Positions 1-30,530 of a stretch of DNA of 32,100 nucleotides are shown here, piece after piece. The DNA is taken from the NCBI GenBank assembly GCA_030533415.1, contig JAUNJE010000033.1, positions 1 through 32,100 of the forward strand, written 5' to 3'. Both the position numbers and the translations under genes were made by a program. The first letter of the stretch is position 1. Every line of letters starts with the position of its first letter. The DNA comes from Eubacteriales bacterium. GTDB taxonomy: Bacteria; Bacillota; Clostridia; Oscillospirales; Oscillospiraceae. The notes below the pieces were generated by a model. It had not been told where the DNA came from. It saw only the letters and a program-made list of their open reading frames with translations, and did no database searches.

Positions 1-1824
1 CCTTATATCCATAAGTATCCGGATTTTGACATTCCTTTGGGTGCTCCCACGCTGGAGGAAATCGTGCCGGATTATATCCGGCAGGATTTTATCCGTACTT
101 TTGACTATACCGAAACCATTGCTCTGGCCCGGGCTTCTGGCCGCACCACTGCGGCCCAATGGCTGGAGGATCTGAAAAAGCTCCTCCGGGAGTGTGACAA
201 CAGCCTGGTTCGGTGCAATCAAAATCTTGCCCATTTCTACCTGCGAGACAAAGGAGCATGCGGTATGTGCAAAGCGCAGAAGAGGTATGATGACTTTTTC
301 AGCAAACCGCCTAAGCCTGTTTCTCCTGTTCCCCCTGCTTCCCCTGTTCCATCTCCTCTGCCTGTTACTCCAGCCAAGCCAAAGCCATGGAAAAAGATTC
401 TGACTATAGCCGCAGTAGCCGCGCTGGTTGTATTTTGCTTTGCCGGCCTTCTATCAAAGAGAGGAGCCGTTGACAGTCGTGCTGCATCCCAGGCGCCCAG
501 TGTTCATACGGATAGAACCGGCGTACTAGGAATCCCGATGGATCAGGAGACTCTGTCCTTACTGGATTCCGAACCGGAAAGCTACGAGTATTTTGACGGC
601 AGCCGTCTGTTGATGTATTTTAATGTCGCCGGGGAGGAGCGCTGCCGGATGTACCGGGACGCCACAGACAACCTCCTGTACGTTTTTGTGGCGGATTACA
701 ATGATGCCGGAGATATCACCACCCATAGAACCTACGATGGGGAAGGTACGCTCCTGCGGACAGATCAATATACCTACAATGCAGGCGGCAACTGTGTGGA
801 AGTACAGATTATCCGGGGAGACGGGCGCCCCGGCCGCACCATCACCCGAACCTATGACCAGCAAGGGCGGCGGGTCAGTTATGAAGAAAAGGTTGATGAC
901 GGAACGGTGCTGGATCATACTGAAACCACCTACGGTACCGATGGCTGGGCCCACAGCACCTGGACGGAATATGGCGGGAACTACGGCGAGTCGATAAGTG
1001 ACGAAAATGGGAACCAAATTTCTTACACATCATGGAACCAAGACGGATCAATCGATTATAAGCATGAAAGCCTTTATGATTCTGAGGGACGGCAAACGCA
1101 AAGTGCCGGTAAATACAGTCTATCCGATGGCGGTTGGGGTTTCAGCACTGAGGCTTATCAGTATAACAGTAAAGGAAAAATTGACAAAATCCTGCACTAT
1201 AAAGCAGACGGAAGCTTGCAGTCTACCCAGTCCTATCTGTATGGACCCCATGACATTGTAATGGGCTACTCCTATGACTACAGTGAAAGCCAGTCAACTT
1301 ACGGGTATGTCGAAAGTATTGTAGGGACATATGTATACCGTGTATCAGTATATAGTTCAGACTCCTATTTTAGCTATAGAATTGCCCTGTATGACGTGAT
1401 GGGGAATTTACTGCGCTCTATCTCTGTTGATAAAGAAGGCAATGTACAGGACGATGAGGAATATTTTTATGATGACTATGATCAAGAAGTTCAGCGATAC
1501 TTTACCGATTACCATTCAGACGGCAGCAAAAGCCGCACGCGCTATGTATACGGTGAAAAAAACTATGACGTCACTATAACCGCTGACGGGGAGCAGAAGG
1601 ATCTGAGAAAATATTTTCATGATTACGACAGCAATGGCCGGCTAATCAAGGAGACCGCCTGGGATGAAAACGAAGAGATCATTTCCTGGACAGAGTACAC
1701 CCGGGATTATAGAGGCTGGGTCACCAAGAAGAAAACCTACGATGCCGATGGAAAGCTGAGTTTCTGGGTAGATATCACATATGACGAAAACGGAGAGCCG
1801 AACAGTGAATACCACTTCAATTAA
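1..1824 (+). CDS. Membrane-anchored YegI-like protein kinase with YD-repeat ectodomain (5' end outside window)
   Basis: The frame is open from base 1, so this is the 607-residue C-terminal part of a longer protein; the TTG at 37 is not a credible start. Residues 1-90 match the end of the kinase module in the next gene almost exactly, including a Cys-x5-His-x8-Cys-x2-Cys cluster (C72, H78, C87, C90) that could bind zinc. A Pro-rich linker (about 98-130) leads to one membrane helix (about 132-151). The remaining 455 residues carry many Y-D-x-x-G repeats of the RHS/YD or MORN-like sort, spaced by Tyr-rich beta strands, and would lie outside the cell. The family is known to pair an intracellular Ser/Thr-type kinase with other modules; sensing by the ectodomain is inference. 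The next kinase gene starts 24 bases downstream with an AGGAGG site, so the two are probably co-transcribed. Confidence 0.8.
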   Translation, partial: PYIHKYPDFDIPLGAPTLEEIVPDYIRQDFIRTFDYTETIALARASGRTTAAQWLEDLKKLLRECDNSLVRCNQNLAHFYLRDKGACGMCKAQKRYDDFFSKPPKPVSPVPPASPVPSPLPVTPAKPKPWKKILTIAAVAALVVFCFAGLLSKRGAVDSRAASQAPSVHTDRTGVLGIPMDQETLSLLDSEPESYEYFDGSRLLMYFNVAGEERCRMYRDATDNLLYVFVADYNDAGDITTHRTYDGEGTLLRTDQYTYNAGGNCVEVQIIRGDGRPGRTITRTYDQQGRRVSYEEKVDDGTVLDHTETTYGTDGWAHSTWTEYGGNYGESISDENGNQISYTSWNQDGSIDYKHESLYDSEGRQTQSAGKYSLSDGGWGFSTEAYQYNSKGKIDKILHYKADGSLQSTQSYLYGPHDIVMGYSYDYSESQSTYGYVESIVGTYVYRVSVYSSDSYFSYRIALYDVMGNLLRSISVDKEGNVQDDEEYFYDDYDQEVQRYFTDYHSDGSKSRTRYVYGEKNYDVTITADGEQKDLRKYFHDYDSNGRLIKETAWDENEEIISWTEYTRDYRGWVTKKKTYDADGKLSFWVDITYDENGEPNSEYHFN

Positions 1825-1847
1825 TCAGCAAACGCAGGAGGAATACA

Positions 1848-3842
1848 ATGCTTACAGAAAATTCCATTGCAACGGGTCTTAACAGTCAAGCCTACCGGCT
1901 TGGTAAGGAACTGGGAGTCGGTGGAGAAGGAACTGTGTACGAAATTCCCGGAACCAGCCTGGTAGCGAAAATCTACAAGCAGACAGCCCTGGAGCAGGAG
2001 CAAAAGCTCAAATACATGGTCTGGCATCCGGTATCCAACGTAGCAGATCAGCATGGGAACAAGATCATGACTCTGGCCTGGCCCAAGGATGTGCTGTATG
2101 ACGGCAATGGAAGCTTCGTAGGCTACACCATGCCCCGGGTGGAGGGTGGTGTGGAGATTTATGAAATTGAGCGGGGCTGTACAACTGCCGCAGCCCAAAC
2201 CATGTTTCCTGGTTATACTTGGCGGTTGAACGTACAGGTGGCCCGTAATCTGGCTGCGGCGGTGATGGCCCTCCACCAGCAACATTACGTCGTCGGCGAT
2301 ATGAACTGCAAGAACATCATGGTCAACTCCGATGGCTCCATCAGCATGCTGGACACAGACAGCTGCGATGTAACGGACCCCTCCACCGGCCATCACTATA
2401 AATGCTGCGTGGGTACCGAGGATTACCTCCCGCCGGAGCTTCAGGGAGTAGACCTACGCTCTCCCCGGGCCAACTTCACCTCTCAGACCGATGACTTTGC
2501 GCTGGCAGTCCATATCTTCCGGCTTCTCATGGACAACCGCCATCCCTTCACCTGCCGCCAGCTGGTCCAGCCTCAGAATTCCAACCATCAAAATCAGCTT
2601 CTGCAAAATGTGGCTCAGGGCAAATGTCCCTATATCCGCCAGATTCCGGGCTTTGGCATTCCCTTAGGTGCACCCACACTGGAGGAGATCGTACCGGATT
2701 ATATTCGGCAGGACTTTATCAGAACCTTTGACTATACCGATGCCACTGCCCTCGCCCGGGTTTCCGGCCGCACCACGGCGACCCAGTGGGTTCAGGATCT
2801 GAAAAGGCTCCTTCAGGAATGCGATGCTGAATTGGTCCGGTGCAATCAAAACCCGGCACACTTCTACCTGCGAAGCAAAGGCTCCTGCGGTATGTGCGCT
2901 GCCCGAAAGCGGCTTGACGACAGCATGGCGGTTGATCCCCAGGAGCTGTTCGACCGTGCCTGGGCATATGAGCGGCAGGGTAATATGTCCGAAGCCGTTA
3001 AGCTTTACCGTCAGGCGGCGGAGCACGGGCATAGCTTTGCCCAAAACAACTTGGGCATATGCTATGAATTCGGTCGGGGAGTTTCCCCCAATATTTTGGA
3101 AGCTGTAAGGTGGATTCGCCAATCTGCTGGGCAGGGAAATGCGGTTGCCCAATGCAATCTTGGTTGGTACCTGTTCAACGGAAAAGGCATAGAGAAGAAT
3201 GTCAATGAGGCAGCTGACTGGTTCCGAAAGGCCGCCGTACAAGGCAACGCAAGGGCCCAAAACTGTCTTGGCATCTGCTATGCCAGAGGGGAAGGTGTTC
3301 CTCAGGACTATTTTGAGGCAACCAAGTGGTACCGATTGGCGGCGGATCAAGGCGAGGCATATGCGCAGAACAATCTCTCATGGCGATATGAGAACGGGGA
3401 GGGCGTCCCAAAGGATCTGGCGCAAGCCGTAGATTGGTGCAGAAAGGCGGCGGCACAGGGACATGAGGAAGCGATAGCCAGGTTGCCTCAGCTTGAGGCG
3501 CAGTTGAAGCAGGCTCTGCACCCTGTTGAAATTGACGGTCAGGTCCGCCTGGCCCCTAGGGTTGTCCAGATGGAGGCAAATGCTTCCACACTCTACATCG
3601 ATCCCAGCATATGCGTCTCCTGCGGAGCTTGTCAGGATGTGTGCCCAGCAGAAGCCATTACAGAGGGCATCCACGGCTTTGAAATCTCAAATGCATGTGT
3701 GGAGTGTGGAATATGTGAGGATCATTGCCCGGTAAACGCCGTGCGCCGGAGCAGCTCCAGCGAAACAAGGCAGGCCGCCAAGCCCGTCCCTGAGAAGAAG
3801 GGCCTGGGTTCATTCTTCAAAAAAATGAGGGATCGGCGCTAA
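1848..3842 (+). CDS. YegI-like protein kinase fused to Sel1 repeats and a 2x[4Fe-4S] ferredoxin domain
   Basis: 664 residues, ATG behind GCAGGAGGAATACA. Kinase domain about 15-290: Gly-rich loop G23-x-G25-G26-x-G28, Lys41 (VAKIY), catalytic D151 and N156 in GDMNCKNI, Mg-binding D169 in LDTDS at the usual 13-residue distance, PPEL in the activation segment, and D215/D216 for helix F. All core catalytic residues are present, so it is probably active. A Cys/His cluster follows (C332, H338, C347, C350). Residues 365-545 are about five Sel1/TPR-like repeats (LGICYxxGxGV, AAxWxRKAAxQG). Residues 585-635 hold two CxxCxxCxxxCP motifs, a bacterial-type double [4Fe-4S] ferredoxin fold. The tail is basic. 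No signal peptide or membrane helix, so cytoplasmic. Kinase plus ferredoxin in one chain is rare; a redox input or an electron-transfer role is inference. Confidence 0.9.
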   Translation: MLTENSIATGLNSQAYRLGKELGVGGEGTVYEIPGTSLVAKIYKQTALEQEQKLKYMVWHPVSNVADQHGNKIMTLAWPKDVLYDGNGSFVGYTMPRVEGGVEIYEIERGCTTAAAQTMFPGYTWRLNVQVARNLAAAVMALHQQHYVVGDMNCKNIMVNSDGSISMLDTDSCDVTDPSTGHHYKCCVGTEDYLPPELQGVDLRSPRANFTSQTDDFALAVHIFRLLMDNRHPFTCRQLVQPQNSNHQNQLLQNVAQGKCPYIRQIPGFGIPLGAPTLEEIVPDYIRQDFIRTFDYTDATALARVSGRTTATQWVQDLKRLLQECDAELVRCNQNPAHFYLRSKGSCGMCAARKRLDDSMAVDPQELFDRAWAYERQGNMSEAVKLYRQAAEHGHSFAQNNLGICYEFGRGVSPNILEAVRWIRQSAGQGNAVAQCNLGWYLFNGKGIEKNVNEAADWFRKAAVQGNARAQNCLGICYARGEGVPQDYFEATKWYRLAADQGEAYAQNNLSWRYENGEGVPKDLAQAVDWCRKAAAQGHEEAIARLPQLEAQLKQALHPVEIDGQVRLAPRVVQMEANASTLYIDPSICVSCGACQDVCPAEAITEGIHGFEISNACVECGICEDHCPVNAVRRSSSSETRQAAKPVPEKKGLGSFFKKMRDRR

Positions 3843-3880
3843 GCTGCCGGTATCTTTTCCAAAAAGAAGGGAGAAAGAAA

Positions 3881-4963
3881 ATGAAACGAAGATTCCAGAC
3901 TGCTTTTTTCGTACTAGTCACAGTGCTTCTGCTCACGGCCTGTGGCAAAGTATCGGAAACGGAGGAGGCCATTAGCCGTATCGGTGAGGTAACTATGGAG
4001 TCCGGGCAGCGGATCGCCTACGCCGAGGAGTTGTATAACGCGCTTCCTGCGGCAAAACAGACCAGAGTGGATAATGCCGGTATTCTCCGAGCCGCCCGTC
4101 AGAAGTATGACGATCTCTGCGGCATGGTGGAGGAAGCCATTGGCGCCATTGACGCCATCGGCCAGGTAACAGCGGACAGCGGTCCGCGTATTCAAGCGGC
4201 CCGAACCGCCTGTGCCAGTGCGGAGGAAGCGGGTTTGGGAAGTTATATCACAAATAAAAGCACCCTGCGTAAAGCGGAGGAAAGCTATGGGGCCATCCTG
4301 CTTCAACAAGCTCAGGAATTGCTCGACGGGCGAAATTACCAGCAGGCTTATGAACTGTTTGGAAAGCTTCGGCAAGAGTATCCCGGCTCCAGTGTAGCTT
4401 CCGCTGCTGAACAGGGACAGGCAGAGGCCTTAATCTGCACGGCGGAGCAGATGTTCAACAGCGGCGATCTGGAGGGGGCCGTTTCTGTCCTAGATACCAT
4501 TGATAAGCACTTTGGTTCCTCGGAACGAACCCAGTCACTTACGGAAAAGCTGGAAAAACGCCTTTCCTCGCAGCGGCCCACTACCGGGAGGAAATTTAAG
4601 GACGGGGTAGGCTGGGGCTATGGCCAGTTTACTGTTTCCGCCGGTTCTACAGATGCCTACGTCAAGCTGGAAAACATAGCCGATCCTACGAAATATACCC
4701 TCTTTTATGTCCGGGCGGGAGAACAGGCCACAATAAATGTCAAGGATGGGTCCTACCGGGTTAAATACGCCTGCGGGAAATACTGGTTTGGCCAGGACCG
4801 AATGTTTGGCGAAAAGACCGCCTTCACCATGGCAGAGGACACCATGGATTTTAGCACAACCCGGGAAGGGAGCTATATTTATTATTCCGATGTTTCCATT
4901 ACACTCTATGCCGTCCTCGGCGGCGACCTAGAGACTACCGAGATCGATCCGGAAGATTTTTAA
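3881..4963 (+). CDS. Secreted lipoprotein with TPR-like helices and a C-terminal beta domain
   Basis: 360 residues, ATG behind AAGAAGGGAGAAAGAAA. The N-terminus is a lipoprotein signal: KRR, a hydrophobic stretch, and the lipobox LTAC with Cys21. Residues about 30-130 are Ala/Glu-rich helices. Residues about 138-225 look like two TPR-type repeats (AQELLDGRNYQQAYELFGKL and a following copy with GDLEGAVSVLDTI). Residues about 235-345 form a beta-rich domain with DGSYRVKYACGKYWFG, a pattern that I associate with exported proteins near such kinases but cannot name. It lies between two kinase genes on the same strand with gaps of 38 and 18 bases, so it is likely part of the same operon and may act as the extracellular partner of a membrane kinase. 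Enzymatic function is not apparent. Confidence 0.8.
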   Translation: MKRRFQTAFFVLVTVLLLTACGKVSETEEAISRIGEVTMESGQRIAYAEELYNALPAAKQTRVDNAGILRAARQKYDDLCGMVEEAIGAIDAIGQVTADSGPRIQAARTACASAEEAGLGSYITNKSTLRKAEESYGAILLQQAQELLDGRNYQQAYELFGKLRQEYPGSSVASAAEQGQAEALICTAEQMFNSGDLEGAVSVLDTIDKHFGSSERTQSLTEKLEKRLSSQRPTTGRKFKDGVGWGYGQFTVSAGSTDAYVKLENIADPTKYTLFYVRAGEQATINVKDGSYRVKYACGKYWFGQDRMFGEKTAFTMAEDTMDFSTTREGSYIYYSDVSITLYAVLGGDLETTEIDPEDF

Positions 4964-4981
4964 GCGGAGGTCAGGAAATAC

Positions 4982-5581
4982 ATGCTGACGGAAAATTCCA
5001 TTGTTAAGGGAATAAACGGCGGGATCTACCGGCTTGGCAGGGAAATCGGTGCTGGAGGCGAGGGGGTTGTCTTCGCTATTTCGGAGACAAATCTGGTGGC
5101 GAAAATCTATAGGCAGACAGACCCAAACCAAGAGCGGAAGCTCAAATATATGGCCTGGAATCCGGTTCCCAATGTGGTTGACCAGAACATGAATCCCATC
5201 ATGACCTTGGCCTGGCCCAAGGACGTACTGTATGACACCGGTGGGCAATTCGTAGGTTATGCCATGCCCCGGGTGGAAGGCGGTGTGGAGATTTTTGAGA
5301 TCGAGCGGGGTTGTACTGGCGCTGCAGCCAAGGCTACCTTCCCCAATTACACCTGGCGGCTGAATGTATTGGTAGCCCGGAATCTTGCCGCGGCAATCAT
5401 GATCCTCCACCGGCAAAACTACGTCATCGGCGATATGAACTGTAAGAACATCATGGTTAACTCCGATGGCTCCATCAGCATGCTGGACACAGACAGCTGT
5501 GATGTGACAGATCAAGCCACCGGCCATCATTACAAATGCTGCGTAGGTACCGAGGATGTATCTGCTTCAGATCTGGTTTAA
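4982..5581 (+). pseudogene. Third YegI-like kinase, truncated in the activation segment
   Basis: 199 residues, ATG behind AAGCGGAGG. It matches the kinase at 1848 residue for residue in layout: Gly-rich loop (GAGGEG), Lys in LVAKIY, GDMNCKNIMV catalytic loop and LDTDS. The match stops after VGTED, just before the expected YLPPEL, and seven unrelated residues (VSASDLV) lead to a stop. Helix F and the rest of the C-lobe are missing, so it cannot fold as a complete kinase. At the break the DNA switches to an IS5-type transposase fragment in another frame, so the loss came from recombination with mobile DNA and not from a point mutation. Parts of the gene are identical at DNA level to the kinase at 1848 (41 bases around AACTCCGATGGCTCC), which points to recent duplication or gene conversion. 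A short expressed product is possible but I see no sign of selection for it. Confidence 0.8.
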
Positions 5582-6112: not shown

Positions 6113-6157
6113 TTCGGGTCCAAGAGGCCTCGGGTTCGAATCCCGACACTCCGACCA
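6113..6157 (+). pseudogene. 3' fragment of a tRNA-Pro(CGG) gene, likely integrase attachment site
   Basis: The sequence fits tRNA positions 32 to 76: anticodon loop TTCGGGT (anticodon CGG with G37), the 3' strand of the anticodon stem (CCAAG), variable loop AGGCC, a perfect T stem TCGGG/CCCGA around TTCGAAT, acceptor strand CACTCCG, discriminator A and encoded CCA. The 5' half is absent: the bases before 6113 do not pair with CCAAG and no CGGAGTG acceptor strand is found upstream. A break at the anticodon loop is the typical crossover place for tyrosine integrases that use tRNA genes. The genuine tRNA-Pro would be expected outside the window. Confidence 0.8.
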
Positions 6158-6161
6158 GAAT

Positions 6162-6212
6162 ATCCGCCGTTTTTGCAGCATAAAAGTTGCAAAAACGGCG
6201 GATTTCTTTTGT
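6162..6212 (+). terminator. Strong Rho-independent terminator behind the tRNA fragment
   Basis: Perfect 16-bp inverted repeat, arms 6162-6177 and 6188-6203, loop of 10, followed by TTTCTTTTG. It begins five bases after the CCA end and is probably the original terminator of the tRNA gene. Confidence 0.85.
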
Positions 6213-6369
6213 AAAGGCTTCCAACTGTCCCAAATAAATCACTTCCCGAATTAGGGCAGCCACTCCCCACTCCCCTGCCTGACCCAGATTTGACCCAAAC
6301 GGGAGTGCTTTCACGAACCGTCGAAAAACGCCCAATTCCAAATGTTCGGAAAACTTCGTTTTTCAAAAC

Positions 6370-6400
6370 AGCCCCCGGTGCTGTTTCGGCACCGGGGGCT
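6370..6400 (-). terminator. GC-rich hairpin, probable terminator
   Basis: Perfect 12-bp arms (6370-6381 and 6389-6400, AGCCCCCGGTGC) with a 7-base loop. On the - strand it is followed by TGTTTTGAAAAA. It lies 138 bases beyond the stop of the leftward gene ending at 6538. On the + strand no T-run follows directly. Confidence 0.6.
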
Positions 6401-6537
6401 GCTGCGCTTGAGGCTTTATTTGTTTTCTTCGTTTTGTTAGTTTCTGTCTGGCGGTAACCAAGAGTTATGTTTGACGGTATGCCCTGTGAAGCTGGAATCT
6501 GTCAATGTTGTATTAGAACATAATTATCGTTATAGCT

Positions 6538-7110
6538 TTACTTTATGGTAGTCACCAAATAATCCGTTATATCTTTTGTCGCTATTGCATCCTTGTCGCT
6601 CATAATTTCCCATATAGGAGCTGCGCTGGGCTGTCCAGAAAAATATCTTCGGGCGCAACCCAGAACAGCGCTTATATTTTTTGTATCCAACATAATATCA
6701 TAGGCTTCATCGAAAATACACATATCACATTTGATGGGATCATCTTCGTTCAGTTCGATTTCAAAAAGCCGGATTTTCGCCCGCTCTTCTTCCGGTTCCT
6801 GCGCCCAGCCAGCTTCATATAATGTTTTGAAGTAATCAAGACTATCAAAAAAATAACTGCAATCTAATCGACTGGGTAAAGAAGGGAATTCGGTTTTTCT
6901 CACAAACTCGAATACTCCCTCAACACACCATTTCACATATTCACGCCATTCATCGTTTGGCAGCTTCATATCTGCTATCATGGATTGAAGATAGCTTTCG
7001 GAATGCTCTAATGCTTTCATAAACATATTACAACACTCCGTGTTTCCTCTATATCCCGCTTTCAATTTGTTGCCAAGTTGTAGTGTTTGGCTCATATGAT
7101 AAACTCTCAT
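6538..7110 (-). CDS. Hypothetical protein, DUF2441-like
   Basis: 190 residues, ATG behind CCAAGAGGTAAAA. The opening MRVYHMSQTLQLGNKL and the middle YFFDSLDYFKTLYEAGW with a later IWEIMSDKDAI recall DUF2441 proteins, which are of unknown function and often occur in accessory regions. The protein is acidic, soluble and lacks a signal peptide or membrane helix. A short open frame upstream (to about 7249, TTG start) overlaps its start and looks like a decayed fragment. Its position next to the tRNA fragment is compatible with acquired DNA. Family assignment is tentative. Confidence 0.65.
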   Translation of the reverse strand: MRVYHMSQTLQLGNKLKAGYRGNTECCNMFMKALEHSESYLQSMIADMKLPNDEWREYVKWCVEGVFEFVRKTEFPSLPSRLDCSYFFDSLDYFKTLYEAGWAQEPEEERAKIRLFEIELNEDDPIKCDMCIFDEAYDIMLDTKNISAVLGCARRYFSGQPSAAPIWEIMSDKDAIATKDITDYLVTTIK

Positions 7111-7422: not shown

Positions 7423-8373
7423 TTATTTGTTGTATTTGTAGAAGCCCTCACCGGAAGACGCACCAAGCTTCCCTTCATCAATATACTTTTTCAGCATTTT
7501 TTCCATGCCCTTGAAATTATAGGGGGCTAAGAACGAAGGAATCTTAACATACATTTTAACAATATTATATGCAGTGGTAAGGCCGACAGTATCCAGAATC
7601 TGGAAGGGGCCTTTGGGAGCGCCGGTTCCAAGGACCCAAGCTTTATCGATGCTCTCCGGGTCGGAGATGCCGTTGACATATAGATCCATACCAGAGAACA
7701 GCAGGGGAACCAGCATAGAGTTGAGCAAATACCCGGATTTTTCCTTGCAGACGGGAAGAGGGATCATTCGCATTTCCTCTGCGAAGGCGGTGACTTGGTC
7801 AAAATAGCTGCTGTCGGTTTTCGGCTGTGCCATGATCTCTGCGGTATTGTTCTTCCATATGGAGTTGGCGAAGTGAAGGGACAGGTATTTTTCCGGCCGG
7901 CCCGTATATTTCGCGAACTTGGACGGAAGCAGGGTGGAGGAATTCGTGACAATGATTGTTTTCTCCGGCAGCAGAGGCGCCAGCTTCTGATAGAAGGCGA
8001 TTTTCTGTTCCGCGTCCTCCGCCATACTTTCGATGATCAGATCGGCGTCGGCCACTGCTTTGCTTAAATCAAGCTCTAACTTTAGTCCTCCGTAGGCTTT
8101 TTCAACCTTGTCCAGGCATGACGCTTCGTCGAAGGTTTCGTAGTCTGCGATACCTCTGGCCCAGATGGCTGGGGTCTGGCCTTCTGGCACCGCCATTTTG
8201 TGAATCGTATCAATATAGACCTCTCTAAGCTGATCCAGCTTGGGCTGTGTACGGGTGATGCTGCTTTCACTGCGTAACCAGATGGTCACATCAAACCCGC
8301 AATAGGCGGCCTGGAAGGCGATCTGGCTGCCCAAAACGCCGCCGCCCGCAACAACAACATGACGGATTTTCAT
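7423..8373 (-). CDS. 3-hydroxyacyl-CoA dehydrogenase, NAD-dependent
   Basis: 316 residues from the ATG at 8373, which has GAGGTGATAACG at good distance; the GTG at 8382 lies inside that ribosome site and is rejected. The N-terminal Rossmann domain has VAGGGVLGSQ (residues 8-17) and IIESMAED (113-120); NSSTL follows at 144-148. The catalytic His is H167 in LHFANSI and its Glu partner E179 in AEIM. The C-terminal helical domain includes KSGYLLNSMLVPLL and GPFQILDTVGL. Members oxidise 3-hydroxyacyl-CoA, as 3-hydroxybutyryl-CoA dehydrogenase does in the butyrate pathway. It is longer than classical Hbd (about 282) and stands alone without crotonase or acyl-CoA dehydrogenase neighbours, so the physiological substrate is uncertain. 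A palindrome lies just upstream. Confidence 0.88.
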   Translation of the reverse strand: MKIRHVVVAGGGVLGSQIAFQAAYCGFDVTIWLRSESSITRTQPKLDQLREVYIDTIHKMAVPEGQTPAIWARGIADYETFDEASCLDKVEKAYGGLKLELDLSKAVADADLIIESMAEDAEQKIAFYQKLAPLLPEKTIIVTNSSTLLPSKFAKYTGRPEKYLSLHFANSIWKNNTAEIMAQPKTDSSYFDQVTAFAEEMRMIPLPVCKEKSGYLLNSMLVPLLFSGMDLYVNGISDPESIDKAWVLGTGAPKGPFQILDTVGLTTAYNIVKMYVKIPSFLAPYNFKGMEKMLKKYIDEGKLGASSGEGFYKYNK

Positions 8374-8399
8374 CGTTATCACCTCATTAAGTATATTTT

Positions 8400-17484: not shown

Positions 17485-18240
17485 ATGAAACTTGTAATTC
17501 TTACCGCCCTTGGCGTTGGGGGTGCTACCGTCCTTGGCGGTATCATTGGGTTCGCGTTCAAAAGTATTTCCCGCCGGTTCAGCGATATTGTGCTGGCCTT
17601 CGCGGCGGGCGTCATGCTGGCGGCAGCCGTGCTCGGTTTGATCCTGCCATCCGTGGAATACGGCGGAAAGCTTGGCCTTTTCTACGCCATTAGCGGTATC
17701 TTTACCGGCGCGGTATGCCTGAACCTGATAGACCGGCTGGTGCCCCACATGCACCATCTGGTGGGCGGGGACACGGAACCCCATCATGGCAATGCCAATC
17801 TGAACAAGGTGCTGCTGTTTGTAACCGCTATTGCCATCCATAACCTGCCTGAGGGCATCGCGGCCGGCGTCAGCTTCGGCTCAGACAACACCTCTGAAGC
17901 CCTGCTGATTGCGGGAGGCATCGCCCTGCAAAATATCCCGGAGGGCATGGTCATCATCGCCCCCATGCTGGCAGCGGGCATCAGTCCCCGGCGCACCTTT
18001 CTGTGCGCGCTGGTCACCGGGCTGATCGAGGTGGTGGGCACGCTGCTGGGCTATTTTGCCGTCACCCTTGCCACCGCCATTCTCCCCTTTGCCCTGGCCT
18101 TCGCCGGGGGCACCATGCTGTACGTCATCAGTGACGAAATGATTCCCGAGACCCATTCTCACGGCGATGAAAGCGGTGCGACCTATGCGCTTCTGGTCGG
18201 CTTTTGCGTGATGCTGATATCGGATGTATTGTTGGGGTAA
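17485..18240 (+). CDS. ZIP-family divalent metal transporter (ZupT-like)
   Basis: 251 residues, ATG behind GGAAAGGAGACACCC. About eight hydrophobic helices with the paired metal-site signatures HNLPEG (H119-G124, helix 4) and QNIPEG (N150-E153, helix 5). A His-rich loop (PHMHHLV, EPHHGN, residues 87-102) lies between helices 3 and 4, as in zinc importers. Proteins of this family bring Zn2+, and less selectively Mn2+ or Fe2+, across the cytoplasmic membrane. No Zur or Fur box is evident. The next gene begins four bases after the stop, so a bicistronic message is likely. Confidence 0.93.
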   Translation: MKLVILTALGVGGATVLGGIIGFAFKSISRRFSDIVLAFAAGVMLAAAVLGLILPSVEYGGKLGLFYAISGIFTGAVCLNLIDRLVPHMHHLVGGDTEPHHGNANLNKVLLFVTAIAIHNLPEGIAAGVSFGSDNTSEALLIAGGIALQNIPEGMVIIAPMLAAGISPRRTFLCALVTGLIEVVGTLLGYFAVTLATAILPFALAFAGGTMLYVISDEMIPETHSHGDESGATYALLVGFCVMLISDVLLG

Positions 18241-18244
18241 CGCG

Positions 18245-18634
18245 ATGCGGAAAGCGGATATTGTTCAGCGGCTGAAAGAGCTGGAATTTGACAAAAACGA
18301 ATACTGGGTCATCACCGGCGGCGCCATGGTCCTGTACGGTCTGCGGGAAGAGACCCATGACATTGATCTTGGCTGCACCAGGAAATTGGCGGATACGCTG
18401 GCGCGGCGGGGCTTTCCCGTTTCCCTTCTGGAGGACGGCACCCGGAAGATCCGCTGCGGAGCGGATGTAGAGCTCTTTGAGAACTGGCTGTTTGGCGAAA
18501 TACAATGGCTGGACGGGATCCCCGTGATTTCCCTGGAGGGCCTGGCGGAAATGAAACGCAGTCTTGGCCGGGAGAAGGACCAGCGGGATATTCGCTTGAT
18601 TGAAGCTTTTCTTGCGGAAAAGAAATCCCCTTGA
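18245..18634 (+). CDS. Nucleotidyltransferase-fold protein (AbiEii/DUF6036-like)
   Basis: 129 residues from the ATG at 18245, four bases after the ZIP stop, with only GGGGTAACGCG as ribosome site. The pattern ITGGAMVLYGLREETHDIDLG gives the GG ... D-x-D of the minimal nucleotidyltransferase fold. It lacks the extra C-terminal domain of full AbiEii toxins, and no antitoxin gene is adjacent, so a stand-alone housekeeping or orphan role is as likely as a toxin. The end, LAEMKRSLGREKDQRDIRLIEAF, is the usual helical tail of the family. Function not known. Confidence 0.75.
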   Translation: MRKADIVQRLKELEFDKNEYWVITGGAMVLYGLREETHDIDLGCTRKLADTLARRGFPVSLLEDGTRKIRCGADVELFENWLFGEIQWLDGIPVISLEGLAEMKRSLGREKDQRDIRLIEAFLAEKKSP

Positions 18635-18659
18635 GAATCGGACCGGAATATGGTATCAT
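18631..18659 (+). promoter_or_regulatory. Candidate promoter of the HAD gene
   Basis: TTGAGA (18631-18636), 17-base spacer, TATCAT (18654-18659), 31 bases before the ATG at 18690; it overlaps the stop of the gene before it. Confidence 0.5.
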
Positions 18660-18689
18660 AGCAAAAACAAAAAAGGAAAGGACATTCCC

Positions 18690-19331
18690 ATGGTACAAAA
18701 AACGATCCTCTTCGATTTGGACGGCACCCTGACGGATTCCGGTGAGGGCATCATCAACTGCGCCATTCTGGCATTGCAGCACTTTGGCCTTCCCATCCCC
18801 TCCCGGGAGGAAATGCGGGTATTTGTCGGTCCTCCCCTGCAGGAATCCTTTATCCGGCACGGCGTCCCCGCTGACCGGGCCGAGGAAGCTGTCCGCATTT
18901 ACCGCAGCCGCTACATCCCCATCGGTAAATTCGAGAATACCCCCTACCCCGGCATCCGGGAAATGCTGGAAGCACTGAAAGCAGACGGCCATAAGCTGTA
19001 TGTGGCAACCTCCAAGCCGGAGGCCATGTCCATAGAAATTCTGGAACATTTTGACCTTGCCCGGTATTTTGACCAGATCTGCGGCGCTACCATGGATTTT
19101 TCCCGCAGCTCCAAGGAGGCTGTCATTGCCTATCTTCTGGAACAGAACGGCAGGTCGGACAACACTGTAATGGTTGGCGACACCAAATTTGACATACTCG
19201 GTGCCGCATCGCACGGTATTCCCGCCATTGGCGTAGCCTGGGGCTACGGCGAAACCGCCGATATGGAAGCCGCCGGAGCCGCGGCCATTGCCCACAACCC
19301 GGAGGAGCTGCTGGAACTGCTTCGCAGATGA
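18690..19331 (+). CDS. HAD-IA hydrolase, phosphoglycolate phosphatase-like
   Basis: 213 residues from the ATG at 18690 behind AAAAGGAAAGGACATTCCC. Motif I FDLDGTLTDS (D9, D11), motif II VATSKPE, the catalytic Lys region SSKEAV, and motif IV MVGDTKFDI are all present, with the small four-helix cap between I and II typical of Gph and related enzymes. The reaction is hydrolysis of a small phosphate ester; 2-phosphoglycolate or pyrophosphate are likely but not provable. It has its own candidate promoter and is followed by 160 non-coding bases. Confidence 0.9.
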   Translation: MVQKTILFDLDGTLTDSGEGIINCAILALQHFGLPIPSREEMRVFVGPPLQESFIRHGVPADRAEEAVRIYRSRYIPIGKFENTPYPGIREMLEALKADGHKLYVATSKPEAMSIEILEHFDLARYFDQICGATMDFSRSSKEAVIAYLLEQNGRSDNTVMVGDTKFDILGAASHGIPAIGVAWGYGETADMEAAGAAAIAHNPEELLELLRR

Positions 19332-19397
19332 CTGTTTTCTGTGAAAGCTTCGCATTCACCGGAAATATTGAAATCCAGTGCCGCCGTAAAAGCCCCA

Positions 19398-29948: not shown

Positions 29949-30530
29949 ATGTTTATCAAAGACTGGAAAAAGGAAATATTTACCATACCAAATCTGCTCA
30001 GCCTGTTCCGGCTGGTGTTGATTCCTGTGTATGCCTATATTTACCTGCATGCAACGGAAGATTGGCAGTACCTCATCGCGGGAACCATTATGGCCGTATC
30101 CTGTATCACGGATATGATCGACGGAAAGATCGCCCGGCGCTTTAACATGATATCCACCCTGGGAAAAATTCTGGATCCTCTGGCGGACAAAATCACCCAG
30201 TTCACCCTGACCCTGTGCCTTTCGCTGAAATATCCCATCCTGTATCCGGTGCTGGCACTGTTTCTGGTCAAGGAGCTTTTTCAGGTGATTGCCGGTATTT
30301 CCCATCTGCGCAAGGGCAAAATGCTCCCCGGCGCGCTGATGGCGGGCAAGGTCTGCACCACCATTTTATTCATCAGCCTGATTGCCCTGGTGCTGTTTCC
30401 CAATATGAATCCCAGACTGGTAAACGGCATTGCCCTGGTCGATTCCATATTTCTGAGCATTTCCTTTGTCAGCTACATTCTTGCCTACTTCGGCAAAAAC
30501 ACGAAGGTGCAGGATATGAAAACCGAATGA
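29949..30530 (+). CDS. pgsA: CDP-alcohol phosphatidyltransferase (PgsA-type)
   Basis: 193 residues, ATG behind GCGGAGGAAAAATCC. The family signature D-x2-D-G-x2-A-R-x8-G-x3-D-x3-D is complete: D55, D58, G59, A62, R63, G72, D76, D80. NIPNLLSLFRL-like opening (here FTIPNLLSLFRLVLIP) and about six membrane helices fit glycerol-3-phosphate phosphatidyltransferases, which make phosphatidylglycerol phosphate from CDP-diacylglycerol. Cardiolipin synthase of the CDP-alcohol type has the same signature, so the symbol is probable and not certain. A terminator follows seven bases after the stop. Confidence 0.85.
   Translation: MFIKDWKKEIFTIPNLLSLFRLVLIPVYAYIYLHATEDWQYLIAGTIMAVSCITDMIDGKIARRFNMISTLGKILDPLADKITQFTLTLCLSLKYPILYPVLALFLVKELFQVIAGISHLRKGKMLPGALMAGKVCTTILFISLIALVLFPNMNPRLVNGIALVDSIFLSISFVSYILAYFGKNTKVQDMKTE

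Follow-up and report, generated by a model that had tools for sequence, protein, structure and literature searches.

A partly decayed YegI/TerY-P-type array of kinase paralogues, one with a ferredoxin-like tail, in an Oscillospiraceae bacterium

The TerY-P triad is described as a vWA protein, a PP2C phosphatase and a serine/threonine kinase fused C-terminally to a zinc ribbon; such triads accompany CoCoNuT restriction systems, and in stand-alone defensive modules an OB-fold replaces the zinc ribbon of the kinase (PMC11090510). A TerY-P triad was reported to act against T7-like phages (PMC7699616). The Escherichia coli kinase YegI autophosphorylates and the phosphatase PphC reverses this, the conditions under which yegI and pphC are expressed being given as undefined (PMC13232886). 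A more distant design is that of PknG, which is described with an iron-binding domain, helical repeats (TPR), and a lipoprotein and membrane sensor coupled to kinase output, with redox and TPR control (PMC6069109, PMC8546545). Here we report an array of YegI-like kinase genes at the left end of contig JAUNJE010000033.1 of a Eubacteriales bacterium (Oscillospiraceae; assembly GCA_030533415.1, 2.72 Mb in 80 contigs, 88% complete). The window analysed is the whole of this contig (C52), 32,100 nucleotides in length.

An earlier note on the sequence had described three kinase genes and a lipoprotein gene in one operon-like run. Four open reading frames (ORFs) indeed lie closely spaced on the forward strand in positions 1-5581, with gaps of 23, 38 and 18 bp. 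They encode a membrane kinase cut by the contig end (K1, 1-1824), a kinase with Sel1 repeats and a ferredoxin-like tail (K2, 1848-3842), a lipoprotein (LP, 3881-4963) and a kinase remnant (K4, 4982-5581). K1 and K2 are 73% identical and K2 and K4 75%, whereas the closest kinase outside the window, among 83 surveyed loci, reaches 46% to K1, 51% to K2 and 54% to K4. The array is real, holds several kinases, belongs to the YegI/TerY-P group and has partly decayed; triads of this kind are already known, and the iron-sulfur (Fe-S)-tailed kinase is a variant not seen elsewhere in the sets examined. The account that we favour, with slightly better than even confidence, is that the array forms the visible end of a TerY-P/YegI-type locus on a probable integrated element, in which the kinase was duplicated and the copies were given different inputs, including a redox-dependent Fe-S branch.

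K2 is one unbroken frame of 664 codons in which a simple hydropathy scan predicts no membrane helix. It matches Pkinase (2.7e-9), Sel1 (2.6e-41) and Fer4 (1.5e-10) in Pfam. In a single comparison, E. coli YegI aligned with K2 at 31% identity over 347 columns (131 bits, E 3e-36), the zinc ribbon C..H..CxxC included, and judged by this match K2 belongs to the YegI kinase family, which bears out the kinship that had been proposed for the kinases of the array. Across 16 aligned kinases, K41, D151, N153, N156, D169, D171, C332, C347 and C350 are invariant and H338 is nearly so. K2 keeps all of these residues, and K4 keeps the kinase residues within its reach. In our own reading of the alignment, the HRD-K position is occupied by Asn and the DFG motif reads DTD. 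The ribbon of K2 (C-x5-H-x8-C-x2-C, residues 332, 338, 347 and 350; 2841-2897) is common to YegI and would bind zinc. It is followed by a superhelix of Sel1 repeats (2934-3515), recognized by Pfam, in the AlphaFold model and by Foldseek, and by a ferredoxin-like part with two CxxCxxCxxxCP motifs (3576-3755), recognized by Pfam Fer4 and a motif scan. AlphaFold models the kinase, ribbon and Sel1 arm of K2 with confidence, but not residues 571-664 (mean pLDDT of the whole model 81.6), and the top PDB matches of the model in Foldseek are Sel1 proteins, followed by kinases such as BRAF. K2 would be catalytically active and bind Fe-S clusters, and may be redox-gated.

The tails of related kinases were surveyed in 104 kinase ORFs from 83 loci, which became 102 once two duplicate loci were dropped; 99 of these score above 100 bits and 13 lose their 3' end at a contig boundary. 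A tail motif CxxCxxCxxxC occurs in K2 only (1 of the 102, the 13 cut ORFs included), and in none of 22 kinase-like ORFs from 21 loci of a class-wide search. The Fe-S-tailed kinase is unique in the sets examined. When 391 genomes of the class were searched with the K2 tail (E 1e-15, at most 6 candidates scored per genome), 36 gave matches, its own genome included; apart from the window, none of the matches listed extends past tail residue 191, and the start of the ferredoxin part is near residues 212-217. The Sel1 repeats nearest to those of K2 among these listed matches (57%) belong to an HSP70-Sel1 array, in which three consecutive HSP70-like genes bear them (L211:2818-11958, G493:C33); the HSP70-like gene examined with Pfam (in L192) is fused to about 20 Sel1 repeats. 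K2 is not the only TerY-P kinase to be combined with Sel1, since a Sel1-tailed kinase is also found in a Thermoplasmata archaeon (L118). The gene row there (L118:3679-13505) reads TIR-Sel1, Sel1, vWA, PP2C, kinase and kinase-Sel1 fusion, and ties a TIR protein to a TerY-P triad. A ferredoxin ORF adjoining a kinase in L154 was considered as a parallel and dropped, the protein being RnfB-like as judged by eye. Among the literature matches listed, no Sel1-ferredoxin Ser/Thr kinase fusion was found.

Because K1 starts at base 1 of the contig, only the last ~105 residues of its kinase and ribbon are visible. They include a zinc ribbon (about 214-270) in which the ribbon residues are kept, and are followed by a Pro-rich linker, a membrane helix (about 388-450) and a predicted extracytoplasmic ectodomain of ~460 residues. 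The YD repeats that had been ascribed to this ectodomain are backed by seven YD-like pattern matches, the pattern being of our choosing, and the corresponding Pfam family RHS_repeat stays below threshold (19.3 bits against a cut-off of 22), so that "YD/RHS-like" describes it. K4, identified from the ORF list and by comparison with K2, extends from the N-lobe to the activation segment only, and its DNA similarity to K2 stops near 5558-5563; it is truncated, in agreement with its earlier description as broken. A frameshift in K4 was considered and dropped, as the similarity simply ends and the terminal gap of one base is not long enough to diagnose one. Of the kinase and Cys/His modules said to be common to all three kinases, the ribbon is indeed present in K1 and K2; the kinase of K1 is mostly cut off, and K4 stops before the ribbon.

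We built profiles of the kinase, PP2C and vWA from sequences of two genomes of the same genus (G002 and G005), one of the same order (G148) and E. coli; G005 provided no vWA seed, and the kinase profile includes K2. From 323 relatives recovered by profile search, the 79 best-scoring loci, which are not a random sample and include two seed sources (L060, which is G005, and L062, which is G002), were fetched with up to 10 kb on each side. Both PP2C and vWA are present at 64 of the 79 loci, PP2C alone at four and neither at 11, six of these 11 stretches being shorter than 9 kb. Pfam confirmed PP2C_2 and VWA domains in the seeds and in three further sampled loci. The partnership with PP2C and vWA that the earlier note had attributed to the YegI family is therefore the usual arrangement, and isolated kinases with unrelated neighbours in related genomes, the finding that the note had named beforehand as speaking against a system, are not what these loci display. 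The kinase itself is sparse: it was found in 3 of 136 genomes of the genus (E 1e-15), namely its own, G002 and G005, and in 22 of 391 genomes of the class, its own included (E 1e-12). Gene order in G002 is kinase-PP2C-vWA, with PP2C directly after the kinase, and in G148 vWA-PP2C-kinase; in G005 the kinase is followed by a membrane protein with zinc-ribbon-like cysteines (by eye) and no Pfam match, by PP2C and then by the contig end.

Other genes adjoin the triads of relatives. Dynamin-family GTPase genes, recognized by Pfam Dynamin_N, are found at L061:4855-7566 and at L065:5159-7213 and 17569-19353. FHA proteins encoded directly after the triad, a PrsW-FHA (L063:5857-7206) and a trypsin-FHA protein (L065:14531-16048), are candidate readers of phosphorylation, and a lipoprotein with an N-acetylmuramoyl-L-alanine amidase domain after the triad (L065:16065-17555) hints at a cell-envelope output.

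As the earlier note had said, the window lacks genes for PP2C and vWA. Its contig begins within K1, and the pair may lie in the missing sequence to the left. Three PP2C hits elsewhere in the same genome were rejected as partners as they belong to other clusters, namely a PASTA-kinase/PP2C pair adjoining rlmN- and rsgA-like genes on contig C77 and an FHA/PP2C/kinase cluster on C36 (identities by eye). The latter (L036; G000:C36:24000-39636) is a second, different cluster, with two PP2C genes and several kinases and FHA-like proteins, likewise by eye. VWA hits in this genome fall in frames of 939-1495 codons on contigs C62 and C49, away from the array, and the score from the VWA model used is only 9.6e-5 even for the vWA protein of G002.

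Loci with at least two kinases of more than 100 bits make up 12 of the 79, with a maximum of four kinases in L071. Tails at such loci comprise none at all, one or several membrane helices, YARHG (L067), Sel1 repeats (L118) and TPR-like repeats (L121). One kinase platform combined with different tails, as had been proposed for the window, thus recurs within loci. The label "diversifying" fared less well, for it rests on architecture only and the paralogues of the window also arose by duplication within their own lineage. A tree was built from 52 kinases, consisting of 51 of the 96 that passed a length and score filter plus YegI. Bare kinases occupy three places in it (three changes of the label, versus a shuffled mean of 10.2), so at those loci bare and tailed kinases seem to have separated long ago. 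K2 falls in a well-supported group of six with kinases from single-kinase loci, and the duplication in the window is therefore an event of its own. Between K1 and K2 dS is 1.01 and dN 0.20 (dN/dS ~0.2), and between K2 and K4 dS is 1.13 and dN 0.165 (dN/dS ~0.15), which indicates past purifying selection on the duplicates. By these sequence estimates the duplication is old and constrained.

LP carries the lipobox LTAC and a Pfam TPR_19 match, and appears to combine helical (TPR) repeats with a C-terminal beta-rich part, the strands being taken from a poor single-sequence model (mean pLDDT 62.9). A full-length homologue (45% over 363 columns) is present in one of 135 other genomes of the genus, G058, and four others match LP only within residues 10-141. 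In G058 the homologue stands in a run of kinase, vWA, PP2C, a TerY_C (PF15616) protein, the LP homologue and an F5/8-type lipoprotein, and the kinase is a distant member of the family (E 5e-19 to the kinase profile). Both full-length LP genes in the genus thus sit at kinase loci of the YegI/TerY-P kind. Some match to LP was obtained in 23 of 200 genomes of the family, its own included; an LP-related ectodomain is fused to an FHA domain in L178 and, judged by eye, to zinc-ribbon-like parts and a membrane helix in L180.

To the right of the array, positions 6113-6479 of the forward strand contain a likely attachment-site copy, made up of the last 45 bases of a tRNA-Pro(CGG) (6113-6157) and a further 322 bp. 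This segment aligns with C20:12899-13266, with 67 bp identical and 90% identity over ~369 columns, and contig C20 carries the intact tRNA-Pro(CGG) and, after it, an integrase gene cut off where this contig stops (L037, G000:C20:12867-13666). The end of C20 and the start of the window therefore probably flank one integrated element, with the array as its right end. When 101 genomes of the genus, including this one, were searched for the tRNA site, 86 had a match, mostly to the tRNA itself, and because no listed match in other genus genomes passes base 100 of the 367-base query, the stretch downstream of the tRNA looks element-borne. A blastn comparison covered 19 tRNA-Pro loci of the genus, nine of which share the left flank of C20. 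All 19 match the window only within 6113-6210, except for one distant gene-to-gene match in L051 (window 29949-30395), and so the right half of the window is not established as the chromosomal sequence that first flanked the element; it may belong to a tandem element. No empty site was found, since the gene to the right, for a 3-hydroxyacyl-CoA dehydrogenase (7423-8382), matched only its own genome among 61 at E 1e-60. Additional partial copies of tRNA 3' ends, of 21 and 34 bp, occur near tRNA-Pro in two other genomes of the genus (L045 and L053), and a DUF2441-like ORF just right of the attachment-site copy (6538-7110) also matches a PHROG family whose function is unknown.

Relatives were also sought in phages and plasmids. 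A single-protein scan of genome contigs gave 17 pattern matches, none of them a relative, before the profile search provided the 323, and 52 pattern matches in viral contigs likewise contained no relative. Phage records gave three weak matches, one spanning 98% of the query at 25.9% identity, and 58 plasmid records matched, all below 60% identity. In PHROGs, the kinase and ribbon of K2 hit one family, of unknown function, at 1.2e-33, and distant relatives therefore occur in viruses or prophages. No close phage-borne system was found among phage records, viral contigs and PHROGs.

We propose the following model; gene neighbourhoods support the view that its parts belong together. In the usual triad, a zinc-ribbon kinase would phosphorylate itself and its targets, PP2C would reverse this, and vWA would serve as a metal-dependent scaffold. 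At the present locus the kinase was duplicated, and the copies would have been fitted with different inputs. K1, held in the membrane, would sense the cell surface with its ectodomain. K2 would be cytosolic, its Sel1 superhelix docking partners and two [4Fe-4S] clusters tying its activity to redox state, oxygen or iron. LP, a surface lipoprotein, could supply an outside ligand or a cell-envelope signal, and K4 would be a dead copy. A PP2C/vWA pair common to the kinases would reset the system. The passage of a signal from LP to a kinase and the role of vWA are conjectural parts of this model. A more ambitious form of this model, which we put forward only tentatively, has K2 as a redox-gated kinase, switched by two [4Fe-4S] clusters at the tip of its Sel1 arm, whose sister kinases, acting on the same phosphatase, read the surface; the locus would then be a multi-sensor hub that parallels, by independent origin, the rubredoxin-kinase-TPR arrangement of PknG.

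Several observations weigh against the account that we favour. E. coli YegI has Ser at the position of N156 in K2, and N156 is therefore not universal. No PP2C or vWA of the TerY-P type was recognized in this genome, which is 88% complete and in which the contig ends inside K1. The ferredoxin fusion is known once, from one fragmented assembly, and is shared by none of the remaining 101 kinase ORFs surveyed (13 of the 102 being cut at contig ends) or of the 22 from the class search; the ferredoxin part is poorly modelled (pLDDT <50). The LP link comes from two genomes with mutually distant kinases; four LP-like loci from other genera (L177-L180), for which longer stretches were retrieved, yielded no match to the kinase, PP2C or vWA profiles, and a simple lipobox scan found a lipobox ORF within 3 kb of the kinase in just 4 of the 30 loci examined, counting the window, so a general lipoprotein-kinase link was not upheld. 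Finally, K4 is a dead copy and the locus is partly decaying. In another explanation, which we consider unlikely, the array is mostly a decaying local duplication within a mobile element, with one working kinase, leftover copies and no coordinated multi-input function. It would suit the greater closeness of K1 and K4 to K2 than to any other surveyed kinase, the truncation of K4, the scarcity of the kinase in the genus and the end of the locus at an attachment-site copy. However, dS values near 1 with dN/dS of 0.15-0.2 indicate duplicates long under constraint, the tails of K1 and K2 are entirely different, and multi-kinase loci recur elsewhere. Highly improbable, in our judgement, is that the K2 fusion is an artefact of assembly or of a rare strain, in which a kinase gene and a Sel1-ferredoxin gene unrelated to it were brought together: the fusion has been seen once, and no listed tail match besides K2 spans both the Sel1 and ferredoxin parts, but the frame is uninterrupted, the kinase-Sel1 junction is paralleled in L118, and no separate Sel1-ferredoxin donor gene was found in this genome or among the listed tail matches (E 1e-15, at most 6 candidates scored per genome).

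We know of no defence role of E. coli YegI. An anti-phage function of the array, in which the kinase branches would detect infection and phosphorylate a target that halts phage growth, is distinctly unlikely in our view. It draws on the activity reported for a TerY-P triad against T7-like phages and the company of triads with CoCoNuT (PMC7699616, PMC11090510), on the TIR-Sel1 gene upstream of Sel1, vWA, PP2C and two kinase genes in L118, on the sparse and probably mobile distribution, and on PADLOC matches to PD-T4-6, MkoA and mad6 through the kinase domain. These PADLOC matches (best 1.1e-9) are to other kinase families and reflect common kinase-domain similarity. The OB-fold that takes the place of the ribbon in stand-alone defensive modules (PMC11090510) does not figure among the Pfam families listed, 25 of 26 for K2 and the single one for K1, and both kinases keep the ribbon. 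A surface ectodomain and a lipoprotein may also suit envelope sensing better. Support for the earlier suggestion of a "defence-type" system is only indirect. The scan of viral contigs gave no relative, though the PHROG match stands; for the array, a defence role is unproven.

To our knowledge, the stimulus sensed by YegI/TerY-P kinases is an open question. It can be addressed by comparing the branches of a locus that joins one kinase core to different sensors, and the ferredoxin tail points to a concrete stimulus. Triads expand to multi-kinase loci in several Clostridia, and the Sel1, FHA and lipoprotein neighbours in some of these suggest candidate readers and inputs.

Among described systems, the YegI-PphC-YegL system of E. 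coli is alike in its GDxN and DxDS motifs and its C..H..CxxC ribbon, and relatives of the array keep PP2C and vWA neighbours; it differs in having a single kinase with another C-terminal part, without Sel1, ferredoxin or a YD-like ectodomain, and the window for its part shows neither PP2C nor vWA. K1 and K2 share the TerY-P ribbon (C332, H338, C347 and C350 in K2 numbering) and relatives contain the triad, whereas the array has several kinases with different tails, an Fe-S tail and a lipoprotein, and its triad is incomplete in the window. The multi-kinase TerY-P loci of Lachnospiraceae and Oscillospiraceae (L064 and L067-L073) similarly hold two to four kinases of the same family with bare, membrane or other tails, together with PP2C; vWA is present as well in all but L073, a cut contig. 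However, no ferredoxin tail or LP homologue was found in them, two of their kinases being truncated where contigs end. A bare kinase, of which there is none in the window, occurs in each of them. The PknG-GlnX-GlnH system of actinobacteria is an analogue only. It shares a cytosolic kinase, an iron-binding domain, helical repeats, and a lipoprotein and membrane sensor encoded alongside. Its kinase is of another subfamily, with a rubredoxin before a PknG-type core and TPR after it; K2 instead begins with the kinase and would carry its two [4Fe-4S] clusters at the C-terminus. The membrane partner here is itself a kinase, and amino-acid binding is not attributed to LP.

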